Shown here one piece after another: positions 28,223 to 32,092 of a stretch of DNA of 33,854 nucleotides. A program made the translations under genes and the position numbers. Position 1 is the first letter of the stretch; each line of letters begins with the position of its first letter. The stretch comes from Bacillota bacterium (lineage in GTDB: Bacteria > Bacillota > GCA-003054495 > Carboxydocellales > JAJZTU01). The stretch lies in NCBI GenBank assembly GCA_021848765.1, contig JAJZTU010000004.1:1-33854 (forward strand), given 5' to 3'. Under the pieces are notes generated by a model. That model was not told the origin of the DNA, searched no databases, and saw nothing but the letters and a program-made list of their open reading frames with translations.

Positions 28223-28714
28223 TTGGTTACTGCCTATGTGGGATTGGGTTCGAATCAGGGTGATTCTCCGGAAAACATACGCCAGGCCCTCCGGAAACTG
28301 GACTGTAACCCCGGGGTCAGCGTGCAAGAGGTAGCCGGCTTATACAAGACTGCCCCTGTGGGTTATCTGGAGCAGGACTGGTTTGTAAATACTGTAGCCC
28401 GGATTGAAACCTCGTTGAGTCCTGATGGACTGCTTAAACTTTTGCTGACCATCGAGGATGAATTGGGTAGGGTAAGGACTATCCGTTGGGGGCCCCGGAC
28501 TTTGGATTTGGACCTGCTTCTTTACGCAGGAGAGGTAATTGACAGTCCGGAGCTAACTGTGCCCCATCCGAGAATGCAGGAAAGGGCCTTTGTCATGGTC
28601 CCCCTGGCTGAAATTGCGCCCGATTTGCTGATAAAAGGACAGCGGGCCGAACAAATAGCGAAGATTCTGAAAAAGAATCAAGAAATTGTTGGCACTGGGC
28701 AAAAAGTGTGGTAA
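28223..28714 (+). CDS. folK: 2-amino-4-hydroxy-6-hydroxymethyldihydropteridine diphosphokinase
   Basis: FolK transfers diphosphate from ATP to 6-hydroxymethyl-dihydropterin, making the FolP substrate. The 163-residue protein has AYVGLGSNQGDSPENI, VSVQEVAGLYKTAPVGY, and the HPPK signature RWGPRTLDLDLLLY, then PHPRMQERAFVMVPL. TTG 28223 has AAGGGTG about eight bases upstream. The last 26 bases of the gene contain the -35 box of the next promoter. Confidence 0.95.
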   Translation: MVTAYVGLGSNQGDSPENIRQALRKLDCNPGVSVQEVAGLYKTAPVGYLEQDWFVNTVARIETSLSPDGLLKLLLTIEDELGRVRTIRWGPRTLDLDLLLYAGEVIDSPELTVPHPRMQERAFVMVPLAEIAPDLLIKGQRAEQIAKILKKNQEIVGTGQKVW

Positions 28715-28717
28715 AAT
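28689..28717 (+). promoter_or_regulatory. Sigma-A promoter of the pantothenate leader
   Basis: TTGGCA (28689-28694), 17 bases and TAAAAT (28712-28717). The -35 box is inside the end of folK. Transcription should start near 28724, roughly 310 bases before the first pantothenate-operon start codon. Confidence 0.8.
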
Positions 28718-28723
28718 GGACTT

Positions 28724-28985
28724 GCATTATTAGAGTTTGAATTTTTAACCATTAGTTTTAACCATTAGGTAGTATCTTTTTAGAACTGCACTAGTTGGTT
28801 AAATGAGCAAGTATTACACTAAACAACAACAAAATCCGCTTGGAGCCGGGTGGACCGAGACGGAGAGGGAACACAGCCAAATTATGCAGCCTATGTCCAA
28901 CGGTAGGCTATTTGCCTGCCAGGTAAGTGGGACTGGCTGCCTTGCAAGGTGTTTAGCCCTTCGGATTCGTCCGGAGGGTTTTTAT
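28724..28985 (+). ncRNA. Candidate leader RNA/attenuator of the pan operon
   Basis: About 260 bases lie between a good promoter and an intrinsic terminator, immediately before the DUF2520-panB-panC-panD genes. The 5' part has a perfect 13-bp tandem repeat (TTTTAACCATTAG, 28743-28768), either copy of which can pair with CTAGTTGGTTAA (28791-28802). A GC-rich part (28835-28950) can form AGCCTA/TAGGCT and GCCAG/CTGGC stems. The only frame (28803-29015) lacks a ribosome site. I could not match T-box, TPP, FMN, cobalamin, SAM, THF, ZTP or guanidine consensus elements. A stand-alone small RNA is the alternative. Confidence 0.6.
28957..28983 (+). terminator. Terminator hairpin before the pan operon
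   Basis: CCCTTCGGA-TTCG-TCCGGAGGG is a 9-bp stem (one G-T pair) with a TTCG loop and TTTTT following. It lies 50 bases upstream of the first operon start codon, so it would stop transcription from the leader promoter unless prevented. Confidence 0.85.
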
Positions 28986-29032: not shown

Positions 29033-29917
29033 ATGTCCAAACCCGGATTCTGTATTGTGGGAGCAGGGGTAGTAGGAACAGCGGTAGCAACCCTCCTGAC
29101 CGCCCAGGGATATCGCCTGGTAGGTGTGGCCAGCAGAAGTTTGTCTGCCGCTCAGGGGTTAGCCGAAAGGCTGGGAATCAAGGAAGCCGTATCCCAATCT
29201 CCCTGGGAAGTCACCAGGGGAGCGAAGCTGGTTTTTATAACTACTCCTGACAAAGCTATTTACGAGGTTTGTGCGGCCATCCAAAAGCATGGGGGTTTTT
29301 CACCGGAGATGATAGTTATACATATGAGCGGGGCTTTGGCCAGCGATAGTCTGGCGCCCGCCAGAGAAGCGGGAGCACGGGTGCTGTCCCTGCATCCCCT
29401 CCAATCCTTTGCCAGGGTGGAGGAGGCTGTGGCCAACCTGCCCGGTTCCGTATTCACGCTGGAGGGAGACCAAGAGGCCGGAGAATGGGGTTTCGCCATT
29501 ATCAGGGATTTAGGAGGACAAGGCTTTGCCATTTCCAAAGCAAACAAGGCTCTCTATCACGGAGCTGCAGTAATAGCTGCCAATTACCTGGTGAGTTTAG
29601 CCCATCTGAGCACGAGTATTCTGGAGGAGATTGGGATTCCCCGGGAAAAGGGGGTAGAGGCCCTGGTCCCGTTGATGGAAGGGGTTTTGAAAAATATCAA
29701 AGCCCTGGGTCCGGCTAAGGCCCTGACCGGGCCAATTGCCCGGGGTGATGCGGAAACTGTTGAGAAGCATGTGAGCTACCTGGCCAAGCTGCCGGGAGAG
29801 TATTTAACAATATACAGGGAACTGGGAGCTTATACTGTGAACGTAGCCCTGGAAAAGGGCACCATAGACCGGGAGGCGGCCGGCAAGCTGCTGGCAGTGC
29901 TTAATAAGGAGGAATAA
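29033..29917 (+). CDS. Rossmann-fold/DUF2520 dehydrogenase, candidate ketopantoate reductase
   Basis: The 294-residue protein begins with an NAD(P)-binding fold (FCIVGAGVVGTAVATLL, residues 6-22; FITTPDKAIYEV) and ends with the helical DUF2520 domain (KANKALYHGAAVIAANYLVS, PLMEGVLKNIKALGPAKALT). It is three bases ahead of panB in an operon that otherwise lacks panE, so it may supply ketopantoate reductase activity; PanG, an alternative ketopantoate reductase described in Francisella, is in my recollection a related protein. The function is inferred from context. ATG 29033 follows GGGGGAAG; the track start at 28949 runs through the terminator. Confidence 0.85.
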   Translation: MSKPGFCIVGAGVVGTAVATLLTAQGYRLVGVASRSLSAAQGLAERLGIKEAVSQSPWEVTRGAKLVFITTPDKAIYEVCAAIQKHGGFSPEMIVIHMSGALASDSLAPAREAGARVLSLHPLQSFARVEEAVANLPGSVFTLEGDQEAGEWGFAIIRDLGGQGFAISKANKALYHGAAVIAANYLVSLAHLSTSILEEIGIPREKGVEALVPLMEGVLKNIKALGPAKALTGPIARGDAETVEKHVSYLAKLPGEYLTIYRELGAYTVNVALEKGTIDREAAGKLLAVLNKEE

Positions 29918-29920
29918 AAA

Positions 29921-30751
29921 ATGGCGAGAGTGACAACTACTTCTTTACGCCGAATGAAGGAAGAAGGCAGGAAAATTTCGGTCCTGACAGCCTATGATTA
30001 TTCTACAGCCAAGATTCTGGACGCAGCCGGAGTGGATGTGTTGCTGGTGGGAGACTCCCTGGGGATGGTAATGCTGGGTTATGACTCCACTCTTCCCGTG
30101 ACCATGGCCGACATGCTTCATCACACCAAAGCTGTTGCCAGAGGGACCCGGAACGCTATGGTAATTACCGATATGCCCTTCATGTCCTACCATATCTCTG
30201 TTGAGGAGAGTGTGCGCAATGCCGGCCGGTGCCTCCAGGAGGCAGGGGCCCAGGCGGTTAAACTGGAAGGCGGCCGGGAGATGGCCGATACTATTAAAGC
30301 CATTATCCGGACAGGAATTCCCGTAATGGGACACCTTGGCCTGACTCCCCAGCAGGTCCACCAACTTGGCGGATTTAGTGTCCAGGGGCGTGACGAGGCC
30401 CAGGCCCGCAAAATTCTGGAGGATGCACAGCTTCTGGAGGAGGTAGGGGTTTTTTCCTTAGTATTGGAGTGTGTACCCGCCCCGCTGGCCAAGCTGGTTT
30501 CGGAAACCGTCAAGATTCCCACAATCGGCATAGGTGCAGGGGCTGGCTGTGACGGCCAGGTTTTGGTCATTCAGGACCTCCTGGGCCTTTACAGCGACCT
30601 GACCCCCAAGTTTGTTAAACAGTTTGCTAAGCTTAATGAACCCATGACCGCGGCGGTCAAACAATATATCAAAGAGGTACAGGAGGGTGTCTTCCCGGGG
30701 CCGGAGCACACCTTTGGCATGGAGGAAAGCCTGCTCAAAAAGCTTTACTAA
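29921..30751 (+). CDS. panB: 3-methyl-2-oxobutanoate hydroxymethyltransferase
   Basis: PanB adds a hydroxymethyl group from methylene-tetrahydrofolate to 2-oxoisovalerate, giving ketopantoate. The 276-residue protein has SVLTAYDYSTAKILDAAGVD, LLVGDSLGMVMLGYDSTLPV, AVKLEGG, MGHLGLTPQ and IGIGAGAGCDGQVLV, all standard. AAGGAGG precedes the ATG. It links the folate block to the pantothenate block through its one-carbon donor. Confidence 0.97.
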   Translation: MARVTTTSLRRMKEEGRKISVLTAYDYSTAKILDAAGVDVLLVGDSLGMVMLGYDSTLPVTMADMLHHTKAVARGTRNAMVITDMPFMSYHISVEESVRNAGRCLQEAGAQAVKLEGGREMADTIKAIIRTGIPVMGHLGLTPQQVHQLGGFSVQGRDEAQARKILEDAQLLEEVGVFSLVLECVPAPLAKLVSETVKIPTIGIGAGAGCDGQVLVIQDLLGLYSDLTPKFVKQFAKLNEPMTAAVKQYIKEVQEGVFPGPEHTFGMEESLLKKLY

Positions 30752-30819: not shown

Positions 30820-31665
30820 ATGCAGATAATCAAGACGGTTGCCGAGATGAAAGACTTTGTACACAAGATTAAAGCCGCGGGTAAAAGCCTGGCCCTGGTC
30901 CCCACCATGGGTTACCTCCATCAGGGCCACCTGACCCTCATGAGGGAGGCCAAAGCTGCTTGTAATACGGTGGTAACCAGTATTTTTGTGAATCCCTTGC
31001 AGTTCGGGGTAGGAGAGGACTACGAAGAATATCCCCGGGACCTGACCAGGGACGCCCAGCTAGCGGAGCCGGCCGGTGTCGATGCTATTTTTGCTCCTGC
31101 TGTGGCTGAGATGTACCCTAAAGGCTATCATACTTTTGTAGATGTTGAGGAAATTACCAACCACCTGTGTGGGCGCTCCCGTGCCGGTCATTTCCGCGGG
31201 GTTACCACAGTGGTTAACAAGCTGTTTAACATTGTCCAGCCGGACAAGGCTTTTTTCGGACAAAAGGATGCCCAGCAGGTTCTGGTCATTAAGCGAATGG
31301 TAGCCGACCTCAATATGAACCTGGAGATAGTCACCGTCCCCATTGTCCGGGAAGAGGACGGCCTGGCCATGAGTTCCCGGAACGTATATTTAACCCCGGA
31401 GGAACGCCGGGCAGCCCTGATGCTCAACAGGAGCCTGCAACAGGCCAAAGCAGCAATTGAGGCAGGTGAGCGAAGGGGCAGCGCAATCCGGGACATGATT
31501 GTCCAAACCATAGAGACGGAAAAGCTGGCCAATATCGATTACGTCGAAGTAGTAGCCATGTCCAGCCTGGAACCCCAGGAAAAACTCGAGGGCGAAATAT
31601 TAATCGCTCTGGCAGTACGTTTTGGCAAGACCAGGCTGATTGACAATATTATGCTTACTGTTTAA
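30820..31665 (+). CDS. panC: Pantothenate synthetase
   Basis: PanC ligates pantoate and beta-alanine using ATP through pantoyl-adenylate. The 281-residue protein has the HxGH site (VPTMGYLHQGHLTLMREAK), VNPLQFGVGEDYEEYPRDL, FFGQKDAQQ and the KMSKS-like loop AMSSRNVYL. A CGGGAGGA site lies before the ATG. The 68-base gap after panB holds a small hairpin (30761-30784) without a T-run, so co-transcription is likely. Confidence 0.97.
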   Translation: MQIIKTVAEMKDFVHKIKAAGKSLALVPTMGYLHQGHLTLMREAKAACNTVVTSIFVNPLQFGVGEDYEEYPRDLTRDAQLAEPAGVDAIFAPAVAEMYPKGYHTFVDVEEITNHLCGRSRAGHFRGVTTVVNKLFNIVQPDKAFFGQKDAQQVLVIKRMVADLNMNLEIVTVPIVREEDGLAMSSRNVYLTPEERRAALMLNRSLQQAKAAIEAGERRGSAIRDMIVQTIETEKLANIDYVEVVAMSSLEPQEKLEGEILIALAVRFGKTRLIDNIMLTV

Positions 31666-31708
31666 CCGGGGATTCCCGTGAGAAAATGCATGTGTGGGGG
31701 GAAGAGTT

Positions 31709-32092
31709 ATGTTTCGCACAATGTTCAAATCCAAAATCCACAGGGCCACTGTAACTGAGGCCAATCTTAACTATGTTGGCAGCATCACCATTGATTCCCT
31801 GCTGATGGAAGCAGCAGATTTACTGCCGAATGAAAAGGTTCAGGTAGTAAATAATAATAACGGGGCCCGCTTGGAAACATATGTTATCGAGGGGGAGCCC
31901 GGGTCCGGGGTAATCTGCCTTAATGGCGCCGCTGCCCGCCTGGTCCAGCCGGGGGATTCTGTCATCATCATTTCCTATGCTCTGGTAAGTGATGAGGAAG
32001 CACGAACCCTTAAGCCGAAGGTGGTTTATGTCAATGAGCGCAATCAAATGGTGGAAACCGCTAACAAGGAAAATCACGGGGATATCCGCTAA
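31709..32092 (+). CDS. panD: Aspartate 1-decarboxylase, pyruvoyl type
   Basis: PanD makes beta-alanine from aspartate. It is made as a proenzyme that cuts itself between Gly24 and Ser25 (NYVGSITID) to form a pyruvoyl group. The 127-residue protein has [48 protein letters not shown] and PKVVYV. ATG 31709 follows GGGGGGAAGAG; the track start adds five residues. The last residues (NKENHGDIR) and the stop are in a 28-bp tandem duplication. Confidence 0.97.

Follow-up and report, generated by a model that had tools for sequence, protein, structure and literature searches.

A pan-family RNA before a pantothenate operon, with an apparently unreported antitermination model

The window, by which we mean the whole stretch of 33,854 nucleotides that was analysed, carries on its plus strand the genes folP-folB-folK, followed by DUF2520-panB-panC-panD-nadA. 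The folK gene ends at 28714. The first gene of the downstream operon (29033–29917, plus strand) encodes a DUF2520/Rossmann-like protein (Pfam PF10728 and PF10727) that, judging from its context, is probably a ketopantoate reductase; as read from the sequence, its best start is the ATG at 29033, which is preceded by the ribosome-binding site AAAGGGGGAAGCCAA. Next on the same strand are panB (29921–30751; PF02548), panC (30820–31665; PF02569), and panD (31694–32092; PF02261). A scan of genome contigs with DUF2520 recovered no relative, and one with PanB recovered named relatives, of which Thermincola was nearest.

A sigma-A-type promoter, TTGGCA-17-TAAAAT with an extended TG, is located at the 3' end of folK (28689–28717, plus strand). 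It is recognized by consensus match only, at 10 of 12 positions, and approximately 1.4 such sites would be expected by chance across the scanned region. The leader RNA that would follow has a folding energy of -85.1 kcal/mol (z -3.78 against shuffles), and 1 of 200 shuffled sequences folded equally well. It ends in an intrinsic terminator (28955–28983, plus strand), in which the hairpin proper, an 11-bp stem capped by a TTCG loop, occupies 28955–28980 and is followed by a T run. Near the other end of the leader, the sequence TTTTAACCATTAG at 28743–28755 is repeated exactly at 28756–28768. An earlier note on this DNA had claimed a sigma-A promoter at the folK end, a structured non-coding leader, a strong TTCG-loop terminator, and a 13-bp tandem repeat, all directly before DUF2520-panB-panC-panD. 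Because the promoter-like site, the better-than-shuffle folding, the terminator, and the exact repeat were all found, that observation of the leader is confirmed as real, and the Pfam gene calls agree with its placement.

The earlier note had also called the leader undescribed and of no known class, and had itself named an Rfam hit to a known class as an outcome that would overturn this view. A covariance-model search at the gathering threshold gave exactly such a hit and no other across the window: the pan motif (RF01749), published in 2010, is found at 28766–28867. The match scores 56.1 bits, where the cut-off is 36.2, and is full length (model positions 1–92). For anti-hemB and DLEU2_5, Rfam gave weak matches that fell far below their cut-offs and were taken as chance. 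Weinberg et al. (2010, PMC2864571) define the pan motif as a stem that two bulged A residues interrupt, present in tandem, and locate it before operons with panB, panC or the aspartate decarboxylase gene. They suggested that it is bound by a protein as a dimeric motif, and the main text of their paper gives no expression platform (PMC2864571).

In the window, the RF01749 alignment contains both of the tandem stems, each with its bulged A residues: hairpin 1, with two bulged A residues, at 28766–28793, and hairpin 2 (CCGCUUGG-A ... ACCGAG-A-CGG), together with the conserved 3' tail, at 28835–28867 (both plus strand). The motif is situated upstream of an operon that includes panB, panC, and panD, and the intrinsic terminator falls between it and the first gene. 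The leader is a member of the known pan RNA family. The earlier note's description of pan as a much smaller hairpin element suits a single pan hairpin, but not the Rfam model, which describes a tandem pair over 92 positions.

The window resembles RF01749 in its full-length match, in both bulged-A hairpins, and in the panB, panC, and panD genes downstream, whereas it departs from it in having DUF2520 as the first gene and a leader that extends further to either side of pan than that of nearly all relatives. On the 5' side, the distance from the -10 box to pan is 48 nt, compared with a median of 8 nt across 136 pan sites; the additional stretch in this genome (28718–28765, plus strand) holds most of the tandem repeat. 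On the 3' side, an insert of 87 nt (28868–28954, plus strand) separates pan from the terminator, compared with roughly 5–25 nt in most relatives. We considered the insert as a repeated mobile element and rejected this, as it is present in only one copy in the genome; the extra 5' stretch is likewise single copy. Two other leaders, L026 and L127, have similarly long spacers between pan and the called terminator (102 and 104 nt).

The pan motif was matched in 151 of the 399 Bacillota genomes sampled, and our collection comprised 154 sites. The first gene after pan was DUF2520 at 91 of these (40 families), PanB at 20, PanC at 15, and PanD at 1, with the remaining 27 being other or unassigned genes. 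An automatic finder, some of whose calls are spurious, placed a terminator-like hairpin after pan at 146 of the 154 sites.

Comparison of these leaders side by side revealed complementarity between the conserved 3' tail of pan (consensus GACGGAAGG) and the 5' arm of the terminator that follows (CCTTCCG). The earlier note had proposed that related leaders be aligned and examined for covariation; across 54 families the tail and terminator covary, with a z-score of about -6. The test, which asked whether the complementarity goes beyond a match of two conserved sequences, took one site per family from 127 sites in these 54 families, in five random draws of 2000 permutations each, after 13 sites with doubtful terminator picks or another layout had been removed by hand. 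Each tail paired with its own terminator arm at -11.5 to -11.8 kcal/mol, as against -9.6 to -10.0 kcal/mol with the arms of other families, an own-arm advantage of about 1.7 to 1.9 kcal/mol (z -5.6 to -6.3; 0 of 2000 permutations in each of the five draws); the terminators were chosen automatically, with some wrong picks, and their arms are themselves conserved. The own-arm signal persisted when arms were stratified by G+C content (z -5.5 to -5.9). When the tested segment was moved along pan, the signal lay at the 3' tail and faded within about 12 nt; other segments mostly had no effect, with a weak signal (z -2.5) at 18 nt upstream. A stricter count without gaps, in a fixed register, also showed an excess of tail-arm pairs, smaller than that of the energy test (z 2.6 to 4.4), probably because slippage and bulges occur between the two strands.

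At best fit, the duplexes comprise a median of 9 pairs, and most tail positions show several base-pair types across families. Tail and arm read ACGGAAGG/CCUUCCG in one form and ACAGAGGG/CCUUCUG in Bacillus-type leaders, and a compensated form, ACGAAAGG/CCUUUCGU, is found outside the phylum, in Smithella. Some other pairs retain little of the consensus (L066, GGGGGC/GCCUUC; L076, GGUGAAGG/CCUUCAC). These forms bear on an alternative in which the pan motif merely accompanies a terminator that is constitutive or answers to some other signal, and in which some other cause, for example a protein binding site present in both, makes the tail resemble the terminator 3' arm. The tail and 3' arm are indeed often nearly identical (CGGAAGG), as such a site would predict. 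However, a shared binding site would stay constant, and so the covariation of the tail with the terminator 5' arm in many forms, some of them retaining little of the consensus, counts against this explanation, which we regard as unlikely.

In the window, the candidate antiterminator strand is GACGGAGAGGG (28859–28869, plus strand), a tail with two extra bases. It can form 11 pairs with 28957–28961 and 28966–28971, as helices of 5 and 6 bp around a 4-nt terminator bulge, at -12.6 kcal/mol. Taken alone this duplex is unexceptional, as 20% of shuffled arms do as well, and for this reason the support for the antiterminator lies at the level of the family: the alternative pairing of motif and terminator is kept by covariation across the 54 families and is weak for the window by itself. 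The first part of the tail (GACGG) doubles as the 3' strand of hairpin 2, and because these bases are common to both structures, hairpin 2 and the antiterminator are mutually exclusive. Folding of the growing transcript, which was an equilibrium calculation and not a kinetic one, gave hairpin 2 until about 28955 and a mixture at 28960–28970. With the 3' end at 28975 the antiterminator reached its peak, with 13 expected tail-arm pairs and hairpin 2 lost, and from 28980 the terminator and hairpin 2 replaced it. Across the 127 sites, partial transcripts had a median of 5.7 expected tail-arm pairs and complete transcripts 0.03, and the corresponding value for hairpin 2 rose from 4.2 to 7.2. Partial transcripts had 4.7 tail-arm pairs with their own arms and 3.1 with swapped arms (20 swaps, maximum 4.0), a moderate excess; in some relatives (L005) hairpin 2 was kept at equilibrium even without the terminator 3' arm.

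Taken with the comparative evidence from 54 families, which now supports the attenuation-leader layout that the earlier note had seen before the pantothenate operon, we think it quite likely that the pan RNA controls DUF2520-panBCD by transcription attenuation, with the tail as the antiterminator strand. The tail would have two alternative partners: one is the 5' strand of hairpin 2, and the other is the terminator, through its 5' arm and loop. As long as hairpin 2 can open, the tail would pair with the 5' arm of the terminator as it emerges from the polymerase, no terminator would form, and the operon would be ON. When a bound factor holds hairpin 2, probably along with hairpin 1, the terminator would form and the operon would be OFF. 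We infer this direction of control, with a free tail as ON and a stabilized hairpin 2 as OFF, because the same tail bases form the base of hairpin 2. The bound factor would signal that pantothenate or CoA is sufficient; the kinds of operons and transporters involved suggest that such sufficiency represses pan-controlled operons. We infer that the binder is either a protein, in which case more likely a dimer, or a small molecule; the latter is possible, and the tandem bulged-A hairpins make a protein at least as likely.

The earlier note had proposed a different switch, based on the 13-bp tandem repeat. The segment CTAGTTGGTTAAA can indeed pair with either copy of this exact repeat, at -9.9 and -11.0 kcal/mol. 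Pairing with the proximal copy, which does no more than lengthen hairpin 1, costs 3.5 kcal/mol to block, so that one of the two pairings is clearly favored; in folding of the window leader, neither of them touches the terminator. The repeat lies mostly upstream of pan, and the three nearest relatives (G001, G002, and G003) showed no such repeat in their leaders, leaving a repeat-based switch unsupported. With the leader matching RF01749 besides, we give very little credence to a new riboswitch class switched by the repeat, which we regard as a local duplication.

Not all pan sites are followed by a terminator. In four genomes of one family (f65; L029, L105, L109, and L143), pan precedes a PanT-like ECF transporter gene and no terminator is present. 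The tail in these leaders, GGGAGG, is likely a Shine-Dalgarno sequence that hairpin 2 would partly cover, and a translational route would then follow the same logic as the antitermination model, with hairpin 2 formed as OFF. In these four leaders (pan end +8), the PanT-like genes seem to start at AUA or AUU, 8 nt after GGGAGG. Back to the preceding stop codon we saw no AUG, GUG or UUG in frame, and the peptide can be aligned with the AUG-started homologue in L134. That the RNA is instead always terminated and acts as a stand-alone small RNA, as the strength of the terminator might suggest, is highly improbable given its consistent place, across tens of families, before transporters or genes of the pantothenate and CoA pathway, and given the panT sites of this one family, which lack a terminator and have the motif right next to the start codon. 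We favor, with somewhat less assurance than the attenuation model for DUF2520-panBCD, a more general reading in which pan RNAs are OFF-switches with a shared platform, the tail serving as antiterminator or, before panT in one family, as Shine-Dalgarno sequence. Their regulon would be one of CoA precursors that includes transporters, birA, and other genes, and it would be run by a putative trans-acting factor.

Several further genes were found directly after pan, and it is likely that several of them are pantothenate transporter genes. At seven sites (L010, L059, L061, L088, L106, L121, and L138) the product is a bile-acid-symporter-family protein similar to PanS, the ketopantoate/pantothenate transporter (as found by a scan for one of them, with the other six alike by eye). 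Four sites (L068, L082, L139, and L148) precede BioY-like ECF S components, with a Pfam BioY match for the one scanned; their cargo may be pantothenate instead of biotin. OPT-family transporters follow pan at L074, L091, and L095, and a PanF-like sodium symporter at L141. Genes for birA-like biotin ligase/repressors follow at L004 and L024, and an amidohydrolase with an export-signal-like N-terminus, which possibly releases a pantothenate precursor outside the cell, at L021 and L147. In the Smithella match (L237) the first hairpin is degenerate and its region begins with TTGACA, which is promoter-like; this element may be a single-hairpin pan.

Leaders under the control of PyrR or TRAP are protein-controlled attenuators. 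With these, and with terminator/antiterminator riboswitches, pan shares a hairpin and an antiterminator that are mutually exclusive and an intrinsic terminator just before the operon; unlike the PyrR and TRAP leaders, it has tandem bulged-A hairpins. Pan would resemble a hypothetical CoA riboswitch in that its target genes serve to make or import precursors of CoA. According to a 2022 review no CoA-sensing riboswitch is known (PMC9971707), and a small-molecule reading of pan would therefore be notable. On the mechanism or regulator of pan, or on the panB leader, we found in the literature only the 2010 paper and motif listings in transcriptome papers. An antiterminator reading was not found in the main text of the 2010 paper or in the other searchable texts; the supplements of that paper may annotate terminators. 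The antitermination model is thus apparently unreported, and it is testable.

How Bacillota control the synthesis of vitamin B5 and CoA is poorly understood, and the texts that we searched state no mechanism for pan from 2010 onward. The covariation of tail and terminator offers a direct test by compensating mutations, as well as a read-out for finding the binder. The wider set of pan-regulated genes, in turn, points to candidate transporters for pantothenate or its precursors.
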